Source: Chloroflexota bacterium
GTDB taxonomy: Bacteria; Chloroflexota; Anaerolineae; 4572-78; NAK82
Assembly (NCBI GenBank): GCA_024276515.1
Contig: JAJRXB010000341.1
Span: 1-40,571, forward strand
DNA: 40,571 nt
Direction: 5' to 3'
In this document: positions 5,227-38,415 of the stretch, in pieces
Position numbering within the stretch: the stretch's first letter is position 1
Layout: each line of letters begins with the position of its first letter
Notes under the pieces: model-generated
What the model was told of the DNA's origin: nothing
Seen by the model: only the letters and a program-made list of their open reading frames with translations
The model's database searches: none
Translations under genes and position numbers: made by a program

Positions 5227-5410
5227 GGGAGCACCTCCCGCCGTCATACTGAAGGCAATCCAATCAGGTGAAAAGGTTTCCCATCAGGGACGCGCGAAAC
5301 GCAATATTTGCCCCTGGCATAGTGCGTAGTTGAACCTGCCTACATTCTACTCGCTTTGTCGCTCTGTGTCCAATTGTGTCCAATAATGTAGTGGTAGAAA
5401 AGTAAGTGAT

Positions 5411-5495
5411 ATGTCATTGCGAGGGAGTGAAACGGACGAAGCAATCCCCGTTCACCAACGGCTGAGACCGCTTCGCCTCCGGCTCGCGGTGACAT
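5411..5495. repeat. ATGTCATTGCGAG...CTCGCGGTGACAT inverted-repeat element
   Basis: The terminal arms ATGTCATTGCGAG (5411) and CTCGCGGTGACAT (to 5495) pair at 11 of 13 positions. The internal sequence 'GAAGCAATCCCC...GAGACCGCTTCG' is typical of the dispersed 'cattgcgag...gaagcaatc' repeats found in many bacterial genomes. It is probably a non-coding mobile or REP-like hairpin. Confidence 0.6.
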
Positions 5496-5643
5496 GTCGG
5501 CACACTTTTCATACACGAGCCAAGCTTTCAATTTGGGGGCGTCTGTTCGCCCTGTAGCGGGCAGACACATACCATCCTGGCACGGGGTCGGCCTGCCCCT
5601 ACTCGTTTTGAACACACCCTAATCCTACGACCGTAGATGCCCC

Positions 5644-5658
5644 AGGTGACTGTCACCT
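5644..5658. repeat. AGGTGACTGTCACCT palindrome, copy 1
   Basis: A 15-bp palindrome around a central base, 36 bp past the stop of the metallophosphoesterase gene. The same 15-mer is at 27721-27735, and its core recurs within the long hairpin at 33563-33611. Its position here is compatible with a transcript-end hairpin. Confidence 0.6.
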
Positions 5659-5693
5659 TCTGCCCTCCCCAAAGGGGAAGTGCGGTTATAGTA

Positions 5694-6656
5694 CTAATCA
5701 TTCGCCGTTTCGGCGCACCCGCCGCTCTGGGTGTACGTGTCTACCACTGTGCCGTCAATGGCGATGAACTGGTAGGAAATGGTGGTCCGGGTGACCGTCA
5801 CCAGCATGGCGCCGAAATTGGCGTTGTATCGAACCTGACTGCCAGGCACGGGCGATCCAAACGAATATTTGCTGGAGCCCCCCAAACCATTGACGAAATA
5901 GGGGAAGCCGTCGAGGACAATGCGTTCATACGTGTGGTCGTGGCCAGACAGGGCCGCGTCGGCGCCCCAGGTTTGGTACGGCCACTGCATGTAGGTGGTG
6001 GGACCGTGCAACCCGGACGAAAAGGGGGCGTGGTGAAAGTAGACCAGGTTCCAGCACGCGCTGGAGGCAGCCAACTGACTCTGCAACCACGTGGCCTGGG
6101 CCGACGTGCTCGACACGCCGTCCGGTTCGTGGGAGTCGCTGTCGAGGGCGAACAGACGCACCGGTCCCCAGGTGAAATCGTAGTAGCGTTCGTTTCCGGG
6201 CAGTGTGAAATAGTTCAGGTATGGCGCAGCGCCGGAGGTGTACCAATCGTGGTTGCCCAGCGAGGGGAAAAAGAGGTTGGTGGTAGCTCCTGCCCCGTAG
6301 CTCCCGGCGTAGGGATAGATGAACTGGTGGTAGTACTGGCCGATGTTCCGGTCGATGGTCGAGGCAGCGCCGCTGGGATAGTTGTTGTCGCCGGTGGTGA
6401 TGACGAAGTCCGGGTCCCAGCTCTTGACCATATCCGCCACGGCCAGTTCTCCCTGGCCGGCCTGGCCGTAATCACCGATGACGGCAAAGCGGACGCTCTC
6501 GCCCCGCATGATGAGCGGCAGCCAGACGACGACGGTGCCGGTGGGTGTGGGTTGCTCCGTCGCCTCGGGCTGCGGCCCGCCCAGCGATTCCTCGACGAAG
6601 GCCGGCGCGAGGCCCAGGGTCAGCAGCAGACTGATGAACAGAAGCAAACGGTGCAT
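5694..6656 (-). CDS. Secreted calcineurin-like metallophosphoesterase
   Basis: About 320 residues from the ATG at 6656; the track start at 6698 adds 14 residues ahead of the signal peptide. The N-terminus (MHRLLLFISLLLTLGLAP) is a signal peptide. It is followed by a Pro/Thr-rich linker and 'VVVWLPLIMRGE', a style common in Chloroflexi exported proteins. The metal-binding motifs of the family appear in order: GDYG, GDNNY, GNHD, YFHH and GHDHTYER. The arrangement resembles purple acid phosphatase or acid phosphatase type enzymes acting outside the membrane on phosphomonoesters. The substrate is unknown. It is transcribed alone; the divergent vapBC promoter starts within ~40 bp of its 5' end. 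Confidence 0.88.
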   Translation of the reverse strand: MHRLLLFISLLLTLGLAPAFVEESLGGPQPEATEQPTPTGTVVVWLPLIMRGESVRFAVIGDYGQAGQGELAVADMVKSWDPDFVITTGDNNYPSGAASTIDRNIGQYYHQFIYPYAGSYGAGATTNLFFPSLGNHDWYTSGAAPYLNYFTLPGNERYYDFTWGPVRLFALDSDSHEPDGVSSTSAQATWLQSQLAASSACWNLVYFHHAPFSSGLHGPTTYMQWPYQTWGADAALSGHDHTYERIVLDGFPYFVNGLGGSSKYSFGSPVPGSQVRYNANFGAMLVTVTRTTISYQFIAIDGTVVDTYTQSGGCAETAND

Positions 6657-6691
6657 CGTGAGCACTCCTGTTATTGCACTCCCCGGTTTTT

Positions 6692-6720
6692 TTGACATCC
6701 CTCTTTTTGACGTATATAAT
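6692..6720 (+). promoter_or_regulatory. Consensus sigma-70 promoter for the vapBC pair
   Basis: TTGACA at 6692-6697 and TATAAT at 6715-6720 are separated by exactly 17 bp, which matches the consensus at all 12 positions. The expected start of transcription is near 6727, about 43 nt before the antitoxin GTG. Such a strong promoter on a toxin-antitoxin operon implies tight repression. Confidence 0.85.
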
Positions 6721-6727
6721 CCTGATT

Positions 6728-6752
6728 GTCGGACGAAATGTCATTTGTCGGA
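6728..6752 (+). promoter_or_regulatory. Candidate antitoxin operator
   Basis: TGTCGGA is repeated directly at 6728-6734 and 6746-6752 (18-bp period). The interval holds an imperfect inverted repeat (CGAAATG/CATTTG). It lies right after the -10 box, where AbrB-type antitoxins usually autoregulate. This is inference from position and symmetry only. Confidence 0.45.
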
Positions 6753-6769
6753 AAATGGAGGAGTAGTCA

Positions 6770-7021
6770 GTGATCATTACGAAGGTAGGACGTCGAGGTC
6801 AAATCACGCTTCCCCGGCCAATCCGTCGCCAATTGGACTTGCAGGAAGGGGATCGGATCGCGTTTGTGCAACGGGGCGACGAGATCATTTTGCAGCCGCT
6901 CACCAAAACCCTGTTCGATCTGCGGGGCAGTGTTCCCGTGTCTGGGCCTCAGGATTTCGCGACCATCCGGCAGCAGGTAGTCGAGACCCACGCACGAAAG
7001 GTCGTCCAGGATGAAACCTGA
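6770..7021 (+). CDS. vapB: AbrB/SpoVT-type antitoxin (VapB-like)
   Basis: This 83-residue protein starts at a GTG (6770) with SD GGAGGAG six nt upstream. The N-terminal ~48 residues are a swapped-hairpin AbrB domain: 'KVGRRGQITLPRPIRRQLDLQEGD' then 'DEIILQPL'. The C-terminal half ('IRQQVVETHARKVVQDE') would be the toxin-wrapping segment. It overlaps the PIN-domain gene by 11 bp, the usual antitoxin-first coupling. The expected role is DNA-binding autorepressor and neutraliser of the downstream RNase. Confidence 0.9.
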   Translation: MIITKVGRRGQITLPRPIRRQLDLQEGDRIAFVQRGDEIILQPLTKTLFDLRGSVPVSGPQDFATIRQQVVETHARKVVQDET

Positions 7022-7439
7022 GCGCGTCTTGGCCGACACCAACCTGTTCTTGCGCTACCTGACCAACGACGTGCCGGAGCAGGCAGACGCCGTCGAGCAG
7101 TTGCTTCGCCGCGCAGCCGCCGGGGAGATGGTCCTGGTTACTAACAGCCTGGTCATCGCCGAGATTGTGTGGGCCCTGGAATCATTCTATCAACTGCCCC
7201 GAGACGACGTCAAAGACAAGGTGTTGGCGATTCTGAACACGCCCGGCCTGGAGGTCGTGGACGGGGATATGGTATTGCGAGCCATCACCTGGTATGCCGA
7301 GAAGAACGTGGACTGGATTGATGCCCACAACGCGGCCTGGTTGTTGACCCGGCAAATGAGGACGGTATACACCTTTGACCACAAACATTTTGCCCGCTTC
7401 GAGGGGATTACGGTCAAGGTCCCAGGAGAGGAAGGGTAG
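7011..7439 (+). CDS. vapC: PIN-domain toxin (VapC-like ribonuclease)
   Basis: 142 residues. The acidic residues of a PIN nuclease site are visible: Asp in 'LADTNLFLRYL', Glu in 'SLVIAEIVWAL', Asp in 'DWIDAHNAAWL' and Asp in 'YTFDHKHF'. VapC toxins are Mg-dependent endoribonucleases, often cutting tRNA or rRNA; the target here is unknown. The ATG at 7011 overlaps the antitoxin. Its last 26 bp overlap the 3' end of the convergent GT2 gene (stop at 7414), so both genes share a 3' tail and no terminator fits between them. Confidence 0.9.
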   Translation: MKPERVLADTNLFLRYLTNDVPEQADAVEQLLRRAAAGEMVLVTNSLVIAEIVWALESFYQLPRDDVKDKVLAILNTPGLEVVDGDMVLRAITWYAEKNVDWIDAHNAAWLLTRQMRTVYTFDHKHFARFEGITVKVPGEEG

Positions 7440-8223
7440 GGCGAACGCCCCTCAAATAGAAATTCATCACCCGATATAGCTGGCGGAATCTTTGAAAAAG
7501 AGAAAACAGCAACCTTTCCGACGGGGAGTAGTAGCGTTTCAACAAACGTTTGTGCTCCTGGCGTAAGACGTATCGATGGAGCTCGCTCTGCCCGCCGGCC
7601 GTGTATCTCACCACGACTTCTGGAATGTGCTTGTAGGCAATCTGCCTTTTCAACAGCCAGAAAAAAAAGAAGTCGTGGTCTGCTTTCAGGCGAAAAGATA
7701 GGTCAAACGCCCGCTCCAGGTAAAGGTCTCTGCTCACAAACCACGACTGCTGGCATATAGAGATCAGAAAGGCAGTGAGGCGATCAAAGGTATCGGGGAA
7801 TCTCAACACACGGCCCTGACCGTTGTCGCCGGCTCCATAGATCGGATGGCGCTGCATGGTCAAAACGTCGCCATAAAAAAAGGGCACTTCTGGGAATTTC
7901 TCGATATAATCAGCCACCGACCGCAGAACATTTTCGTGGATAAAGGTGTCCCCGGCGTTCAGAAAGCAGATGTACCTCCCCCGGCAAAGGGGCAAGGCCC
8001 GATTCATCGCATCGTAAATACCCCCGTCTGGCGCAGAAACCACAGTTGTAACCCCCAAAGCGCGCAACACGTCTACCGTGCCATCGGTCGAACCGCCGTC
8101 TTTGACCACGTATTCGTAGTCCGAAAAAGTTTGGCGATGCACGCTTTGGGCGGTGCGTCGCGCTGCGTCGGCGCAATTCAGGGTGACGGTGACGATGCTG
8201 AACAAGGGCGATTGGGGTCGCAT
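7414..8223 (-). CDS. Glycosyltransferase family 2
   Basis: This 269-residue GT-A enzyme has the N-terminal nucleotide-sugar motif 'FSIVTVTLNCADAARRT', then 'YVVKDGGSTDGTVDVL', 'APDGGIYDAMNRAL' and 'YICFLNAGDTF' (the metal-binding region, with NAGD in place of DxD, as in WcaA/colanic-type GT2). 'QSWFVSRDLY' and 'FRLKADHDFFFFW' follow. It would transfer a sugar onto a lipid-linked or growing glycan at the inner membrane face. It is the last gene of the minus-strand polysaccharide locus, 9 bp after the GT4 gene. Donor and acceptor are unknown. Confidence 0.9.
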   Translation of the reverse strand: MRPQSPLFSIVTVTLNCADAARRTAQSVHRQTFSDYEYVVKDGGSTDGTVDVLRALGVTTVVSAPDGGIYDAMNRALPLCRGRYICFLNAGDTFIHENVLRSVADYIEKFPEVPFFYGDVLTMQRHPIYGAGDNGQGRVLRFPDTFDRLTAFLISICQQSWFVSRDLYLERAFDLSFRLKADHDFFFFWLLKRQIAYKHIPEVVVRYTAGGQSELHRYVLRQEHKRLLKRYYSPSERLLFSLFQRFRQLYRVMNFYLRGVRPTLPLLGP

Positions 8224-8232
8224 AGCGTTATC

Positions 8233-9453
8233 CTACCACAGGCTTTGCTTTCTGGCGAAGGCGACCTGACGGGTGTAAACTCCCAACACCCGCTTCAAGC
8301 CGACGCGCAACAGGTGATATGGTTGATACACGGTCAGATTCCACCAATAGCGTCGTGATGAATACGCCCGGGCCGCCTGGGCAAAGGCTTCCTGGTGAGC
8401 CTGGACCGTTTGATCTACCGAAAACTTTCGGGCTTGCCGATAACCAGAGTCTATCAACCGGGTTCGCAAGGTCGCGTCGAACCAAAGCCTTTTGATAGCC
8501 CTGGCGATTTCGTCCGGCGTGGTGGGGTCAAAATAAAGGGCGGCCTCGCCCGCGACTTCCGGTAAGCTTGTGCGATTGGCTGCCGCTATCGGGCAGCCGA
8601 CGGCCATCGCTTCGACCAGGGGGATGCCAAATCCTTCGAACAGTGACGGAAATATCAACAGGCGCGCCCGACGGTACAGGTAGGCCATCTCCTCCACCGA
8701 CACGAAGCCTATTTGATGCACCAGATCGCCCACCCCATACCGGGCCGCCATCTCATTGAGTTGATACCCGCCGTTCACGTCATTCCCGGTAAAAACAGCG
8801 TTGATGGAAAGTCCTTCATGCTCTTTGAGCAACTGCATCGCTCGTAGCAGGCCGTCGTGATTCTTATGCTGCCACCGATTGGCCGGATAGAGGATAAACG
8901 TCTCTGGCAAAGGATGAGAGGGAGCTTTGGCCACTTCGGCGCTGCGATAGTATCGCTCATCAGCGCAGGGATAGGCAACCACCAGCCTATCTGGCCGCAG
9001 ACGATAGTGGTGAGCTATCGTTTGTTTTGAAAACTGTGAGATGGCGATCACCCGATCAGCCAGGTGGCTGGAGACGCGGAGATACCAGTCCCGGTAGAAT
9101 AGGTCCTGTGGCGTGAAGAACTGGGGGTAATACAAATCTTGGGTGTCGGCCAGGGTGATGACCGTAGGGATGGGCGGGAGAGGCAATGGCTGCAATCCGT
9201 TGATCGGGCTGAAGTACACGTCCAGATCGGCCAGATGTCGTCTGATCTGCCCGATATTTTGCAAAAAAACGGCGTCAGCCTGCCAGTGGTCGGTGCCAAG
9301 TTTGGCTAACTCGGGGACGTTGTGTGGAAAGTAAAAGAATACGAAGGTATCAGTCGTGTCACGGATTAACAACTCACGAAAAAGGTTGATGAAATATTGT
9401 CTCATCCCACCGATGTGGGGTTGAAGAAAATAGCAATTGACGCCGATTCTCAC
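8233..9453 (-). CDS. Glycosyltransferase family 4 (GT-B)
   Basis: 406 residues. The N-terminus 'MRIGVNCYFLQPHIGGMRQY' and the C-terminal 'SLFEGFGIPLVEAMAVGCPIAAANRTSLPEVAGEAALYFDP' block are classic GT4 features. The latter carries the E(X7)E donor-binding motif (first Glu in FEGFG, second in VEAMA). 'YPANRWQHKNHDGLL' marks the linker to the second Rossmann domain. It is a retaining transferase acting in the cytoplasm on the polysaccharide precursor. It sits 4 bp downstream of the fcl-like stop and is clearly co-transcribed with it. Confidence 0.92.
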   Translation of the reverse strand: MRIGVNCYFLQPHIGGMRQYFINLFRELLIRDTTDTFVFFYFPHNVPELAKLGTDHWQADAVFLQNIGQIRRHLADLDVYFSPINGLQPLPLPPIPTVITLADTQDLYYPQFFTPQDLFYRDWYLRVSSHLADRVIAISQFSKQTIAHHYRLRPDRLVVAYPCADERYYRSAEVAKAPSHPLPETFILYPANRWQHKNHDGLLRAMQLLKEHEGLSINAVFTGNDVNGGYQLNEMAARYGVGDLVHQIGFVSVEEMAYLYRRARLLIFPSLFEGFGIPLVEAMAVGCPIAAANRTSLPEVAGEAALYFDPTTPDEIARAIKRLWFDATLRTRLIDSGYRQARKFSVDQTVQAHQEAFAQAARAYSSRRYWWNLTVYQPYHLLRVGLKRVLGVYTRQVAFARKQSLW

Positions 9454-9457
9454 AAGG

Positions 9458-10560
<1,103 letters not shown>

Positions 10561-32060: not shown

Positions 32061-32822
32061 ATGGCGGATTTGCTCACAACCAAACAGTTGCAAGAACTAT
32101 TGCAGGTTGACCGCACCACCATCTATCGTATGCTGAACGAGGGGCGGATTCCCGGCTTTAAAGTTGGAGGGCAATGGCGGTTCTCGCGTGATGCAATTGA
32201 GGCCTGGTTGCAAGAACAGGAGAGATCGCTGGGACCTTCCACCCCGGATGCCGCGAGAGCCATAAGGCCGACGGTCGAAGCCTTGCCCATCAATTGCGTC
32301 CAGTCCATGCAAGACATCTTCGCCGAGGCGATGGACGTGGGCTCAATCGTCACGCGGCTGGACGGTGAGCCGATCACCGAGATGAGCAATTCTTGCGAGT
32401 TTTGCAACCTGATCCTGTCCAGCCCCTCCGGTCGACAGGGATGTCTCGACTCGTGGCGACAATTGGCCAACCAAATAGATCGCAGACCCCGATTGCACGA
32501 ATGTCACGCCGGCCTGAAGTATGCCCGGGGGCGGATCGAAGTGCAGGACGAGTTTGTGGGGATGGTCTTTGCCGGCCAAATGTCGACAGACGCCGACACC
32601 GGTGGGCTGGAAGCCCGGCTACCAGAACTGGCAGCTCGCTACAACCTCGACGAGGCGAAATTGCGCCGGGCCGTGACCACGGTGCGCCTGAAGCCGAGCC
32701 ACGAGATCCCCAAGCTGTACAGGCTCCTGCAACGGATGGCCGACACCCTATCGGAGGTGGCCTGCGAACGACTGGCGTTGCTTCAAAAGCTGCGCCACAT
32801 CGCAGAGATCACTTCTATGTGA
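32061..32822 (+). CDS. Excisionase-type HTH regulator with PocR sensory domain
   Basis: 253 residues. Residues ~3-53 are a MerR/excisionase-like helix-turn-helix ('LTTKQLQELLQVDRTTIYRML', 'IPGFKVGGQWRFSRDAIEAWL'). Residues ~78-245 match a PocR ligand-binding domain, with its cysteine pattern 'SCEFCNLIL', 'GCLDSW' and 'HECHAGLKYARG'. PocR domains bind small hydrocarbon-type ligands or use the Cys cluster for metal or redox sensing. SD GGGGAGG lies upstream of the ATG at 32061. It may control the adjacent dikinase/aminotransferase pair, an inference from position. Confidence 0.87.
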   Translation: MADLLTTKQLQELLQVDRTTIYRMLNEGRIPGFKVGGQWRFSRDAIEAWLQEQERSLGPSTPDAARAIRPTVEALPINCVQSMQDIFAEAMDVGSIVTRLDGEPITEMSNSCEFCNLILSSPSGRQGCLDSWRQLANQIDRRPRLHECHAGLKYARGRIEVQDEFVGMVFAGQMSTDADTGGLEARLPELAARYNLDEAKLRRAVTTVRLKPSHEIPKLYRLLQRMADTLSEVACERLALLQKLRHIAEITSM

Positions 32823-33617: not shown

Positions 33618-34421
33618 CTACTGTCTACTGAATTGAAATCGCTGCCGAAAGCGGCGCAACAGTCGCAGCACAGGCGCACCCAACAGTAGAAGCAGCAACA
33701 GATTGCCGATGGCACGCCCCGCATCCCACCAGAGAGAAGTGGTCAGATAAAACAGGCCATAACGCACCAGGGTTTGCAACAGACCGACGCTCGGCTCCCA
33801 GGTGGTGCTCCCCAACTCCCCGGCGGCCGGCCCTCCGCCGGGGGACACCAGATAAGGCCAGAACCAAAGGTTCATCACCAACCCGTAGAGAAAGCCACTG
33901 AGAGCACCCCAGACTGCCAGCAAGAATACCTCCAGGCGTCCCCGGCCGGAGAAATGCGGCAGCCAGCCCGAGGCCATCCCCATCCAGCCGGCGGCGAACA
34001 TTTGAAAAGGGAGCCAGGGTCCCACCCCGCTGGTGATGATCCCCGACACCAGCATCGAGAGTGCGCCCATCAAAAAACCGAAGTCGGCGCCAAAGACGTA
34101 GCCGCACAGGATGGGCAAAAAGAACATCGCGCTGAAGCCGGCCGGCCCGGGAACCAGACGCAACGTGGCGTTGATGCCCACCAGCACCCCCAACACCGCC
34201 ACCACTCGAGCGTCCATCCGGCGCGTTTCCAGGTTGGCGACGATCACCACCAGGCATAATCCCAACAGCAAAATAAAGATGAGCGGCGCGTCGTCTGTGT
34301 GGGCCATCCCCATAGGGGGTCGTTGCGGAGTGGGCGAGAAGAACGGATACAAAAAAGCCCACCCTCCCAGCACGCTGGCCAGCGCCAGGATGAGCGTCGA
34401 AAGAAATTGGGACTTCGTCAT
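33618..34421 (-). CDS. ECF transporter substrate-specific (S) component, probably for cobalamin
   Basis: 267 residues, about six membrane helices. Features: 'ARVVAVLGVLVGINATLRLV', 'GFSAMFFLPILCGYVFGADFGFLMGALSMLVSGIITSGVGPWLPFQMFAAGWMG', the usual S-component layout with small-residue helix contacts for EcfT. The sequence alone does not fix the vitamin. The assignment to corrinoids rests on the operon: B12 riboswitch and a transcobalamin-like DUF4430 protein at its head (CbrT-like context). The start 34421 is 3 bp after the EcfA stop. Confidence 0.82.
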   Translation of the reverse strand: MTKSQFLSTLILALASVLGGWAFLYPFFSPTPQRPPMGMAHTDDAPLIFILLLGLCLVVIVANLETRRMDARVVAVLGVLVGINATLRLVPGPAGFSAMFFLPILCGYVFGADFGFLMGALSMLVSGIITSGVGPWLPFQMFAAGWMGMASGWLPHFSGRGRLEVFLLAVWGALSGFLYGLVMNLWFWPYLVSPGGGPAAGELGSTTWEPSVGLLQTLVRYGLFYLTTSLWWDAGRAIGNLLLLLLLGAPVLRLLRRFRQRFQFSRQ

Positions 34422-34424
34422 TCG

Positions 34425-36122
34425 TCAATCCCCAATCCCCAACCCCCGCAACACGTCCTCCACCGTCAAAAAGCGGTCGTCGCGCAACAGCTTGTTGATT
34501 TGAGAGGCAAAAATCAGCGAGCCGGTCATCACCTCGCGCACCGGACCGTCTACCACCACCTGCCCCTCGCCCAGGATCACCACCCGGTCGGCGCAGCGGG
34601 CGACCAGTTCCACGTCGTGGGTGGCCATCACCACCGCCACCCCCCGGCGACGCAAGTCGGTGAGGATGGCGGTCAGTTGTTCTTTGTTGATGTAATCGAG
34701 ACCGCGCGTTGGCTCATCCAGGAGCAAAATCTCCGGCCCGGCAACCAGGATGGCAGCCAGGGCCGCCCGCTGACGCTCGCCGGTGCTCAGGTCGCGGGGA
34801 TAGGCCTGGGCCAGGTCGCTGAGGCCCAGCCGGTCCAACAAGGGGTGGACGTCGGCCTGGGGGATCTGATGCGCCCGGCAGGTGAAGGTCAACTCGTCGG
34901 CCACCGTCTCGCTGAAGAGAAGTCGCCCGGGGTTCTGGGGCACAAAACCCACCCGTCGGGTTATTTCGGTCAGCGACATCTTCCCCGTGTCCTGGTCGAG
35001 GATGCGGATTCTCCCCCGTTGCGGGCGCAGCACACCCACTATGTTCTTGAGCAGGGTGCTTTTGCCAGACCCGTTGCGTCCCATCAGCGCCACCAACTCG
35101 CCTCGTTCCACGTCGAGGCTCACACCCCGGAGCGCGTCGGCGCCGTTGTAGCGATACCACACGTTCCGGGCGGCGATGGCGGGCGACGGGGGACCTGCAA
35201 TTTGCACCTGGGGGAAGATGATTCGCGAGTCACCCACCTCCGTTCTTGCCTGCGCCGGTCCGTCGGCCTCGGGGGGGAGAGGGGAGTCGGGGCGAGCGGT
35301 CGCAAGCAAGTCGGCGGCAAAGGCGCGCCCCTCTTTGATGGTCAGCGGCACAGGCTGCCAGCCGAGCTTCCGTCCCAACTGCACCAGAGGAGGAGCGAGT
35401 TCTGCCCGCGCCAACACCTGGCGCGGGTCGCCGACGATAGGGGGCTGGCCCTGCGCCGGCAGATAACACACCCGGTCGGCGTATTGGGCCACCCGCTCCA
35501 GCCGGTGCTCGGAGATGACGATGGTCAGTCCCAGGTCTTCGTTCAGCTTTTGGAGGATGGTCAACACCTCTTCGGCGGCCTGCGGGTCGAGTTGCGAGGT
35601 TGGCTCGTCGAGGACCAGCACCGACGGTTGCAGGGTCAGCACGCTGCCAATGGCAACCCGCTGGCGCTCGCCGCCGGAGAGGGTCTCGACCCGCCGGTGG
35701 CGCAGGTGGGCGATGGAGAGTTGGTCGAGCACTTCTTCTACCCGCTTGCGCATCGTGGTTTGCGGGAGGTTGTGATTTTCCATAGCAAAGGCCAGTTCGT
35801 CTTCCACCCGCCGGGTGACGAATTGCGCTTCGGGGTCCTGGAACACGAAGCCGACCAGGTCGCTCATACCGCGCGGTCCCAGGGCCACCGGATCGCGGCC
35901 GGCCACGCGCACCTGGCCGCGAATCGTCCCGCCGTGGAAATGAGGGACCAACCCGTTCAAACAGCGGAGCAGGGTGCTCTTCCCTGCCCCCGAAGGTCCC
36001 ATCACCAGCAAAAATTCGCCAGCCGACACCCGAAGGGAAACGTCGCGCAGGGCGGGGAGTTTTTGGTTGGGATAATGATAGGTGACGCCGATCAGTTCAA
36101 TACCCATAGGGCGTTTCGTCAT
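34425..36122 (-). CDS. ecfA: ECF transporter ATPase, fused A1-A2
   Basis: 565 residues from the ATG at 36122 (SD GGAGAGG, 6 nt); the track TTG at 36128 is less likely. Two full ABC domains in tandem. Domain 1 has Walker A '[11 protein letters not shown]', signature '[12 protein letters not shown]' and Walker B '[12 protein letters not shown]'. Domain 2, from ~residue 300, has '[11 protein letters not shown]', '[12 protein letters not shown]' (S-T-G variant) and '[12 protein letters not shown]'. It drives vitamin uptake through EcfT and S. It overlaps the ecfT 3' end by 26 bp. The 623-aa ORF on the opposite strand is a shadow. Confidence 0.94.
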
Positions 36123-37224
36123 AAGCAACCTCTCCGGTCAAGCGGCCGGCCAGGGCCGGCGCAGCGATGAGCAAGAGTGCCAGACCGATGAGCGGGTCGA
36201 AGGGGGGCCAGCCCAGTCGTGGATAGGGATAAAAGATAAGGGCGGAGCGATGAGTGACCCACGTCGCCAGGATGACCAACGTGGTAGTGATCGAGGCAGC
36301 GGCTACCAGCGAATCGCTCCGTCGCCACAGGTCGCGCCGGTAGCGACTGCGTCGCACGGTTTGCCCGACCATCCACAGGACGGCGACCAGCATCACGCCG
36401 CCGGCCAGCATCGTCGTCCCCCCAACGGCTTTGTTGGGAAAGTAACTCAGGGCGAAAGCCCCGCTGACCAGCACGACCAGGGCCAGGGCGATGATACTTT
36501 TGAACAGTAGCTCGGAGCGACCAGCGCGATCCGTCCCCGTGAGGGAAGCGGGGGGCGGCTGGCCCCCGAAGCCACGCGCGTCCATCGACTCGGCCAGGGT
36601 GATGCTGCGTTCCAGCCCTTCGGTCAGCAGCGCGACGAAAAGGGGAAGCAGGTCGCGGACGCCCCGGAAGCGGTGGCCGCGCAGCGCCTGTGCTTCGCGG
36701 ATCTCTCGCTGGGCGACGACCATCTGGGGCACAAAGGTGATGGCAATGGAGGCCACAATCGCCGATTGGTAGAGAAAGGCGGGTGTGCTGCGCAAAAGCT
36801 GGTAGTGATCCACCAGCGTGTTGAAAGTAGCAAAGGTGACGAGCACTCCCATCAGAGCCAGGCCGGTGGTCAGGCCGTAGACCAAGCTCTCCAGAGTGAC
36901 CTGGCCGCCAATCTGTATCAAGGCTGGCCCCTGCTGCAATGGCGTCGCCAGCTTCCAGCGCAGAGTGGGCAGGGTGAAGAGCAAAGTGTCGCCGGCACTG
37001 ACGAACAGCAGGTTGAAGGCGACGCTGAAGAGGACCAGAATCAGCCCGATGCGAAGAAACACCCCCCATTGACGAGCAGTGGGCGACGTCCGGCCCAGGG
37101 TGACGTAGTTGGCGCCCACGGCCAGGATGGCGACGAGCAGGTAAAAAGGGTTTTTGGTCAACACGACCGACGTCAGCGAGGCCAGCAGCCACAAGCCCCA
37201 CGCCTTGGGGTGATACATATTCAC
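36097..37224 (-). CDS. ecfT: ECF transporter transmembrane component EcfT
   Basis: 375 residues, CbiQ/EcfT family, ~6-8 membrane helices. The two coupling-helix motifs contacting the ATPases are visible: 'AQALRGH' and 'AESMDARGFGG' (A-R-G type). The C-terminal ~130 residues add three hydrophobic helices beyond the usual ~260-residue length. The GTG at 37224 overlaps the DUF4430 stop (GTGA); an ATG at 37218 is an alternative. It acts in the cytoplasmic membrane as scaffold between EcfA1A2 and the S subunit. Confidence 0.92.
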   Translation of the reverse strand: MNMYHPKAWGLWLLASLTSVVLTKNPFYLLVAILAVGANYVTLGRTSPTARQWGVFLRIGLILVLFSVAFNLLFVSAGDTLLFTLPTLRWKLATPLQQGPALIQIGGQVTLESLVYGLTTGLALMGVLVTFATFNTLVDHYQLLRSTPAFLYQSAIVASIAITFVPQMVVAQREIREAQALRGHRFRGVRDLLPLFVALLTEGLERSITLAESMDARGFGGQPPPASLTGTDRAGRSELLFKSIIALALVVLVSGAFALSYFPNKAVGGTTMLAGGVMLVAVLWMVGQTVRRSRYRRDLWRRSDSLVAAASITTTLVILATWVTHRSALIFYPYPRLGWPPFDPLIGLALLLIAAPALAGRLTGEVAYDETPYGY

Positions 37225-38066
37225 GACCGCCCGCGGGTTACGAAGTAGGCCACGCCCAACAGCACAAGCCCCAACCCCGAAAGGCCGGTCACCAGCAGGA
37301 TGAATGGGGACGGGAGTTGGGAGCCGGGAACAGCGGGCTGGGGGGTAGAGATTGGAGGCTGGGGAGACGGGCTAAGAGCGCCAGACTCGAGCCGGGGGTT
37401 GGGCTGTGTGAGTGTGGGGGTGGCAGATAGACGGGCAACCGGTGGTGTGGAGTCCTCGCCCGACCTCGCCAGGGGAATGGGCGTCTCCGTTGCCGGCACA
37501 GGGCAGATGTCCTCGGCCAGAACCGCCACCGGCGGCGATTCTCGGCCACTGCCCCAAACCCAGCCTTCCACGCCACCATCCCTTACCGTGCGGTTGGATG
37601 CGCCCAAGGGGGAATACTTCCACCGACCGTCCTCCGCGTACCAATACGTCCAATACTGGCATGGCGTGCCCAGGCATTGGCAAAAGCAATCTTCCCCCGG
37701 ATAGTCGCACCCGGTTTCGCCGATTTTGCAGATGGCCGTGCCGAGCATCCCTTCTGTCTCGAAAATGAGGTCAAGTTCCGATTGGCGCAGAACGTCCAGC
37801 CCGGTCGCCTCGGCGGCCTCTAGCTCGACGCACCGGGTAAACGTGGAGCCGTCCTCAAATTGGACGTATAATCCCACCCGAATGGGGCCGTCGGCAAAAA
37901 CGGCGGGCACGTTCATCCCAAGCCAGACCCCCAACAAGACCCCTATCGCCAGGGCCAGGCGACGCCCGTCCCCCGCTCGCGTGGGTTTTGTGCGACTTTC
38001 TCCTGCTTTCCAACCCAACAAAATCCCCCCTGGCTTGTGGCATAGGGGGGTGACTTGCCTGCTCAT
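37221..38066 (-). CDS. DUF4430 (transcobalamin-like) membrane-anchored surface protein
   Basis: ~281 residues. 'RRLALAIGVLLGVWLGMNVPAVFADG' is a signal peptide preceded by a ~35-residue extension. The exported domain (~60-180) has 'IRVGLYVQFEDGSTFTRCVELE', a cluster of seven cysteines ('CKIGETGCDYPGEDCFCQC'), and 'YWTYWYAEDGRWKYSPLGASN..VRDGGVEGWVWG'. This is the DUF4430 fold related to the beta domain of transcobalamin/intrinsic factor. A Pro/Ser/Thr linker and one C-terminal helix ('PFILLVTGLSGLGLVLLGVAYFV') with a basic stop-transfer follow. It probably captures corrinoids for the ECF transporter. Start choice: ATG 38066 (TTG 38069 in the track); TTG 38021 or 38018 also possible. Confidence 0.82.
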   Translation of the reverse strand: MSRQVTPLCHKPGGILLGWKAGESRTKPTRAGDGRRLALAIGVLLGVWLGMNVPAVFADGPIRVGLYVQFEDGSTFTRCVELEAAEATGLDVLRQSELDLIFETEGMLGTAICKIGETGCDYPGEDCFCQCLGTPCQYWTYWYAEDGRWKYSPLGASNRTVRDGGVEGWVWGSGRESPPVAVLAEDICPVPATETPIPLARSGEDSTPPVARLSATPTLTQPNPRLESGALSPSPQPPISTPQPAVPGSQLPSPFILLVTGLSGLGLVLLGVAYFVTRGRS

Positions 38067-38082
38067 CAATGCTCTTACCCCC
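38025..38082 (-). promoter_or_regulatory. Candidate riboswitch expression platform (competing G/C runs)
   Basis: Reading the minus strand, an SD-like AAAGGGGGT (38077-38085) precedes the start codons. A CCCCCC run (38045-38050) follows inside the first codons, and a GGGGGG run (38025-38030) followed by ATTTTGTT comes next. The C-run can pair with the upstream SD (AGGGGGT:ACCCCCT) or with the downstream G-run. The two pairings exclude each other, a plausible on/off switch downstream of the B12 aptamer. Confidence 0.5.
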
Positions 38083-38107
38083 TTTCCGCGAAGGTTGCAC
38101 AGAGCAG

Positions 38108-38353
38108 TGGCAGAGGCGGGTTTTCTGGCTTGGCCGGTAGTCAGAAGTCAGTAGCCAGATGTCAGTAGTCAGAAAGCTCTCCCCTGCTGCTCACTGACTT
38201 CTGAGTACTGGCATCTGACCACCGTCTACTGGCCTTACAGTTGCGGGACAGCGCCGGACTTCCAGTTTCCAGGAGAGGAAGCTGGGCACCGGTCTTCCCC
38301 CACGCTCGCGAGAGCGTGCGCCGCGCTTCCGGGCGGCTGGCGCACCTCTGCCA
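38108..38353 (-). ncRNA. Cobalamin riboswitch
   Basis: On the minus strand the core reads 'GTCCGGCGCTGTCCCGCAACTGTAAG' (in pieces: GTCCGGCGC, GTCCCGC, ACTGTAAG; 38235-38261), the conserved centre of RF00174-type B12 aptamers. It is preceded by GGTGCCCAG and followed by 'AAGCCAGAAAACCCGCC', matching the conserved AGTCAGGA-ACC-GCC end. P1 closes perfectly enough: TGGCAGAGGTG (38353-38343) with CGCCTCTGCCA (38118-38108). A peripheral arm of ~90 nt made of degenerate CAGTAGTCAG words sits between the core and the 3' part. It heads the DUF4430-ECF operon. Confidence 0.9.
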
Positions 38354-38386
38354 GTGCGCGTCAGATGTCGAATATTGTGTGCGGCC

Positions 38387-38415
38387 ATCTTAGCACACTT
38401 GGCGGTGATCGTCAA
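38387..38415 (-). promoter_or_regulatory. Sigma-70 promoter of the B12-riboswitch operon
   Basis: The minus strand reads TTGACG (38415-38410), 17 bp, TAAGAT (38392-38387). Transcription would begin near 38380, about 27 nt before the riboswitch P1 stem. The position fits perfectly with the aptamer. Confidence 0.72.

Follow-up and report, generated by a model that had tools for sequence, protein, structure and literature searches.

The window, as we call the whole 40,571-nucleotide stretch of Chloroflexota DNA analysed here, carries a cobalamin riboswitch followed by genes for a surface protein with a transcobalamin-type beta domain and for all parts of an energy-coupling factor (ECF) transporter: EcfT, two EcfA ATPases fused into one protein, and an S component. 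We consider it probable that this operon specifies the beta half of a two-gene intrinsic factor of Chloroflexota together with a CbrT-like corrinoid importer. Intrinsic factor and transcobalamin consist of two parts, an alpha/alpha toroid and a beta domain, and we favor a two-gene intrinsic factor that supplies a CbrT-like ECF transporter because the gene beside that of the beta protein encodes such a toroid in 40 of 43 untruncated relatives, nearly always on the upstream side. An earlier note on this DNA had described a complete, B12-controlled corrinoid uptake locus with an intrinsic-factor-like capture protein feeding an ECF transporter. Its promoter, riboswitch, surface protein, EcfT, fused EcfA and S component all lie in one tight operon as it placed them, and both corrinoid uptake and B12 control at the locus are supported. 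The predicted fold likewise supports the capture protein, but the window holds only its beta half, and the locus is not complete, since the operon has no toroid gene; the alpha toroid is encoded in trans, on contig C269 of the same genome.

A surface protein with a predicted transcobalamin beta-domain fold

The beta protein comprises, in order, a signal peptide, the beta domain (~37500-37883), a proline-rich linker and a C-terminal membrane anchor. An AlphaFold2 model of the domain, built from 46 sequences, reached a mean predicted local distance difference test score (pLDDT) of 92.6. When this model was compared with the PDB using Foldseek, the top match was 5np4, a structure of the human transcobalamin beta domain on its own, with cyanocobalamin (prob 1.00, E 5.8e-5, TMt 0.70), and ranks 1-16 were held only by transcobalamin, haptocorrin, intrinsic factor and the Ruminococcus gnavus structure 3u7z. 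The domain has eight conserved cysteines, five of them within the loop GCxxPxxxCFCQCxGxxC; C97 and C102 (alignment numbering) are lost together in all four sequences lacking either one, as would be expected of disulfide partners.

The transcobalamin-like capture domain of the earlier note is thus recovered by structural comparison of the model, whereas its DUF4430 label is not: PF14478 matched neither the window protein nor any of 46 homologues at E<=1, and found nothing genome-wide at that threshold, while the same model detects members in control genomes. We therefore dropped Pfam DUF4430 as proof of the domain. We also set aside a search of PDB sequences that used the beta profile, since it returned chance matches only (collagen and spike-collagen fusions). 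The model supports kinship of the beta protein to the transcobalamin beta domain at the level of fold rather than through the DUF4430 label, so that of the two pointers to corrinoids named in the earlier note the riboswitch stands and the label gives way to the predicted fold.

Within the class, 115 of 249 sampled genomes encode a protein of this kind; for the phylum the count is 73 of 301. Among named contigs they occur mostly in Anaerolineae, Caldilineae and Ardenticatenia, and also in Actinobacteria, which show the same operon layout, riboswitch included. A scan of genome contigs with the single beta protein gave no match; redone with a tighter beta alignment, it yielded 51 loci. At 37 of the 44 loci scanned, a cobalamin riboswitch (RF00174) precedes the homologous operon on its own strand, at a distance of 30-941 bp; without the loci truncated by a contig end, the count is 37 of 41. 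One Polyangium (Myxococcota) encodes a lone beta protein (locus L137, 7905-8456), with riboswitch, toroid and ECF genes all absent from the surrounding stretch; this gene was possibly acquired by transfer.

The S component belongs to the CbrT family

Taken alone, the window S component gives a sub-threshold match to the Pfam family ECF-ribofla_trS (25.0 against a cut-off of 26.7 bits). A profile of 34 homologues, 26 of which match PF12822, was more discriminating: searched against all PDB sequences, it retrieved a sole entry, 6FNP (E=1e-7), and at E<=1 no S component of any other kind. This entry is ECF-CbrT, which is reported to be an ATP-dependent cobalamin transporter (PMC5997447). By this profile match the S component belongs to the CbrT (B12) family, with cobalamin as its predicted substrate. 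Because the assignment is based on the match to 6FNP, it is independent of the riboswitch, and the S component can be assigned to corrinoids, as the earlier note had proposed. In the fused EcfA-EcfA, both TIGR04520 and TIGR04521 score over their cut-offs. EcfT carries an extra C-terminal membrane region (36097-36500), extending ~120 residues or more past the CbiQ domain.

The probable toroid partner is encoded in trans

The toroids of the relatives match squalene-cyclase and prenyltransferase families and the unnamed SCO2321 family. Of the 43, 12 have a match to the Pfam family PF01122, 'eukaryotic cobalamin-binding protein' (best 1.2e-6), and the class II cyclase motif DxDD is absent from all 33 of 33 toroids. 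Natural fusions join the beta domain either to the S component or to two toroids in one protein (in relatives L061, L062, L063 and L065). In L062, a beta-S component fusion (7710-10028) and a beta-two-toroid fusion (5296-7683) both occur.

The only toroid of this family found in the window's own genome is a protein of 374 residues on contig C269, with a signal peptide, an LPATG-like motif and a C-terminal membrane helix. Its gene has another RF00174 riboswitch (46 bits) in front of it, and behind it come cobS (PF02654) and cobU (PF02283, 4e-57). The toroid falls slightly under the PF01122 cut-off (1.8e-5; 24.3 against 25 bits). Its model has a pLDDT of 90.7, with cyclases first among the structural matches and transcobalamin next (2.4e-5).

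A comparable separation is seen in CP070811.1, a single-contig genome of the same family (an Anaerolineales bin), in which 2.4 Mb lie between the orthologue of the toroid (77%), at 1.386 Mb, and that of the transporter (73-84%), at 3.80 Mb. Because this single contig also splits toroid from transporter, the split reaches back beyond one genus and is no artefact of binning. The orthologous transporter locus there (L017) keeps its riboswitch (41 bits), and a separate toroid-beta pair lies at 1.35 Mb. Upstream of the CP070811.1 toroid, an Rfam search found no riboswitch, and BLASTN recovered merely fragments of the leader of the C269 toroid. In the trees, the C269 toroid falls in a single-toroid clade (99/98), and the window S component groups with those of L017, L058 and L073. 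The beta tree is too poorly resolved for co-evolution of the window beta protein and the C269 toroid as a pair to be claimed, and we make no such claim.

The genome itself is a metagenome assembly, 82% complete, so that absences from it are provisional. At that completeness no protein of the BtuC family scored over cut-off and CbiC was not found, yet 11 B12-binding domains did exceed their cut-offs. From this gene inventory the organism is probably a B12 consumer dependent on uptake and salvage, for which uptake would be essential.

The riboswitch and its expression platform

The covariance-model search proposed in the earlier note gave a minus-strand RF00174 match of 54 bits (E=7.8e-11; gathering score 31.5 bits). 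Since the 4.28-Mb genome contains only three over-threshold matches, its position upstream of the operon is not a chance hit. The strongest of the genome's cobalamin riboswitches (57.8 bits; locus L011, contig C229, 5925-6116) precedes a small unknown open reading frame and a radical-SAM/TRAM protein. A variable arm of the window aptamer (~38133-38212) holds a lineage-specific insert of repeated GACTTCTGACTAC-like units, with five matches against 0.05 expected by chance; the sister leader in L017 largely lacks the insert.

On the 3' side of the aptamer follow CCTTCGCGGAAAGG (one base varies), a G-run, a C-run and a second G-run with T residues, a layout common to the window, L017, the toroid leader (L012), L046, L047, L056 and others. 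In the window, antiterminator arms lie at 38082-38077 and 38051-38045, and a terminator-like hairpin at 38050-38025 is followed by a T-rich run. Read from the sequence, the platform loop CGCGGA is able to pair with CCCGC of aptamer L5. B12 attenuators are usually built in this way, with aptamer, antiterminator and terminator in this order and with L5 pairing. The alternative hairpins of the window, at -12.7 and -15.4 kcal/mol, are modestly below shuffled sequences (z -1.0 and -1.8), and those of the toroid leader strongly so (z -2.5 and -3.2). Control of the window operon is most likely exerted by transcription attenuation. A hairpin that sequesters the ribosome-binding site was rejected as the sole switch; in the window it is not clearly lower in energy than shuffled sequences, and attenuation suits the relatives better.

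The annotated start of the beta open reading frame, 38069, falls within the expression platform (38094-38019). Because it would lie inside the attenuator, translation probably starts at TTG 38021 or 38018 instead. In agreement with a later start, the frame from the matching ATG in the sister leader (L017) stops after 17 codons.

Proposed mechanism and alternatives

We envision that the alpha toroid and the beta-domain protein, each tethered by its C-terminal membrane helix, form a two-part trap outside the cell, which would close around a corrinoid and hand it to the CbrT-like S component. The EcfT/EcfA-EcfA module would then turn over the loaded S component at the expense of ATP. The window operon would supply the beta protein and the whole transporter, and the second riboswitch operon the toroid, alongside the salvage enzymes CobS and CobU. 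Since each operon is under a B12 riboswitch, both halves would be shut off when B12 is plentiful: bound B12 would favor L5-L13 contact and formation of the P13 hairpin; that hairpin would capture part of the antiterminator and allow the terminator to form.

Several observations weigh against this picture. Foldseek gives moderate TM-scores (for the beta domain, 0.47 relative to query length), and the best matches of the toroid, in structure as in sequence, are terpene cyclases, with transcobalamin behind. In CP070811.1 the orthologous beta gene (L017, 6576-7340) is degraded, its core lost and stops present, so the split arrangement may be decaying in this lineage. The beta tree leaves the window protein unplaced and lends no support to a cognate pairing with the C269 toroid, and absences from an incomplete assembly are weak evidence.

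The most serious competitor, which we nevertheless judge unlikely, is that the beta protein binds corrinoids on its own while the C269 toroid has another job. Such a protein would account for the operons without an adjacent toroid (the window and its orthologue L017, and likewise the relatives L070 and L072), and 5np4 is itself an isolated beta domain crystallized with cyanocobalamin. It sits poorly with an alpha/beta adjacency kept in nearly all untruncated relatives, with the natural alpha/beta fusions, and with a displaced toroid that remains under a B12 riboswitch beside cobS and cobU. Least probable of all, to our mind, is a reading in which the toroid acts as an enzyme of the terpene or sterol type, with the beta protein as an unrelated protein of the cell surface and some other reason behind the regulation by B12. 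The squalene-hopene and drimenyl-diphosphate cyclases among the toroid's best sequence and fold matches would suit an enzyme; against one stand the missing DxDD motif, the N-terminal signal and C-terminal anchor, the transcobalamin fold of the partner protein, and the linkage to a CbrT-like transporter, cobS/cobU and B12 riboswitches. Hardly more credible is a transporter for cobalt or another vitamin, as the CbiQ Pfam family of EcfT and the sub-threshold riboflavin-type label of the S component might suggest, given that the operon has no CbiM-type protein, that CbrT is alone among solved structures in matching the S profile at E<=1, and that the partners are a transcobalamin-fold protein and a B12 riboswitch.

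Beyond the window, we lean towards a broader reading of the two-gene intrinsic factor, in which a widespread bacterial two-subunit form, its halves assembled at the surface, clamps corrinoids and delivers them to CbrT-like ECF transporters. In the usual view, ECF transporters bind their substrate by the S component alone, within the membrane; an extracellular clamp that is conserved, linked to this component and at times fused with it would add a new mode to ECF uptake. Bacteria too would then have the alpha/beta B12 clamp, a function would be suggested for relatives of the unnamed SCO2321 and SCO2322 families, and Chloroflexota would have a route of B12 acquisition. In the literature searched we found no link of SCO2321/SCO2322 or DUF4430 proteins to bacterial ECF uptake, nor an account of a system like this one; Rodionov et al. 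2009 may mention one.

Organization of the operon and its neighbors

The four genes are tightly packed on the minus strand, overlapping or separated by gaps of a few bases (Table 1). By consensus comparison only, the promoter-like site matches 9 of 12 positions, with TG preceding the -10 element. The upstream neighbors are moaC and a moaD-moaE fusion, both pointing away from the operon; downstream, Rrf2 and PocR-domain regulators converge on it. Two genes downstream, on the opposite strand, an excisionase-type helix-turn-helix is fused to a PocR sensory domain (32061-32822).

Table 1. Coordinates of the elements of the window operon and of the toroid operon on contig C269
Feature	Position	Strand	Remarks
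Sigma-70-type promoter, TTGACG-17-TAAGAT	38415-38387	minus	consensus match only
Cobalamin riboswitch aptamer RF00174	38098-38364	minus	covariance-model match
Expression platform	38018-38094	minus	P13/L13-like CCTTCGCGGAAAGG, antiterminator arms, terminator-like hairpin
Beta-type surface protein	37221-38069	minus	signal peptide, transcobalamin-type beta domain, C-terminal membrane anchor
EcfT (CbiQ family)	36097-37224	minus	PF02361, 41.8 bits
Fused EcfA-EcfA ATPase	34425-36128	minus	two ABC_tran domains; TIGR04520 379 bits, TIGR04521 346 bits
S component, CbrT-like (cobalamin, predicted)	33618-34421	minus	family profile vs PDB 6FNP; PF12822 in homologues
Second B12-riboswitch operon	L012 (contig C269) 6578-10154	minus	toroid, cobS, cobU

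Comparison with known systems

In role, as B12 import with an extracytoplasmic binder, the proposed system resembles BtuFCD, from which it differs in that its own genome has no BtuC family member over cut-off; the folds of BtuFCD and of the alpha/beta-ECF system are unrelated. The nearest matches of the toroid and beta proteins are SCO2321 and SCO2322 (NCBIfam NF053823 and NF040672; E down to 1e-38 and 7e-9), although here and in the relatives all these matches fall below the curated cut-offs, and the NCBIfam names give no function. The DUF4430 (PF14478) relative 3u7z of R. gnavus shares the fold by Foldseek, without a Pfam sequence match here.

ECF-CbrT of Lactobacillus delbrueckii (6FNP) is alike in S-component family, ECF module and cobalamin substrate, the last predicted here. 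The Lactobacillus transporter is of Group II, with an ECF module shared by several S components, and its cluster nrdJ-cbrS-cbrT-pduO contains no gene for an extracellular transcobalamin-type protein (PMC5997447). In contrast, the window has a dedicated operon, fused ATPases and such an extracellular protein.

With vertebrate transcobalamin, intrinsic factor and haptocorrin, the system shares the beta-domain fold, an alpha/alpha toroid partner and, presumably, the cobalamin clamp. Whereas the vertebrate carriers are single chains, here the two parts are encoded by two genes and anchored in the membrane, with beta-alpha-alpha fusions in some relatives; the beta domain has eight conserved cysteines with a Cys-rich loop (CFCQC), and identity is ~13%. 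The two-gene system would bear on the origin of the animal B12 carriers, with the ECF transporter here standing in for their receptor.

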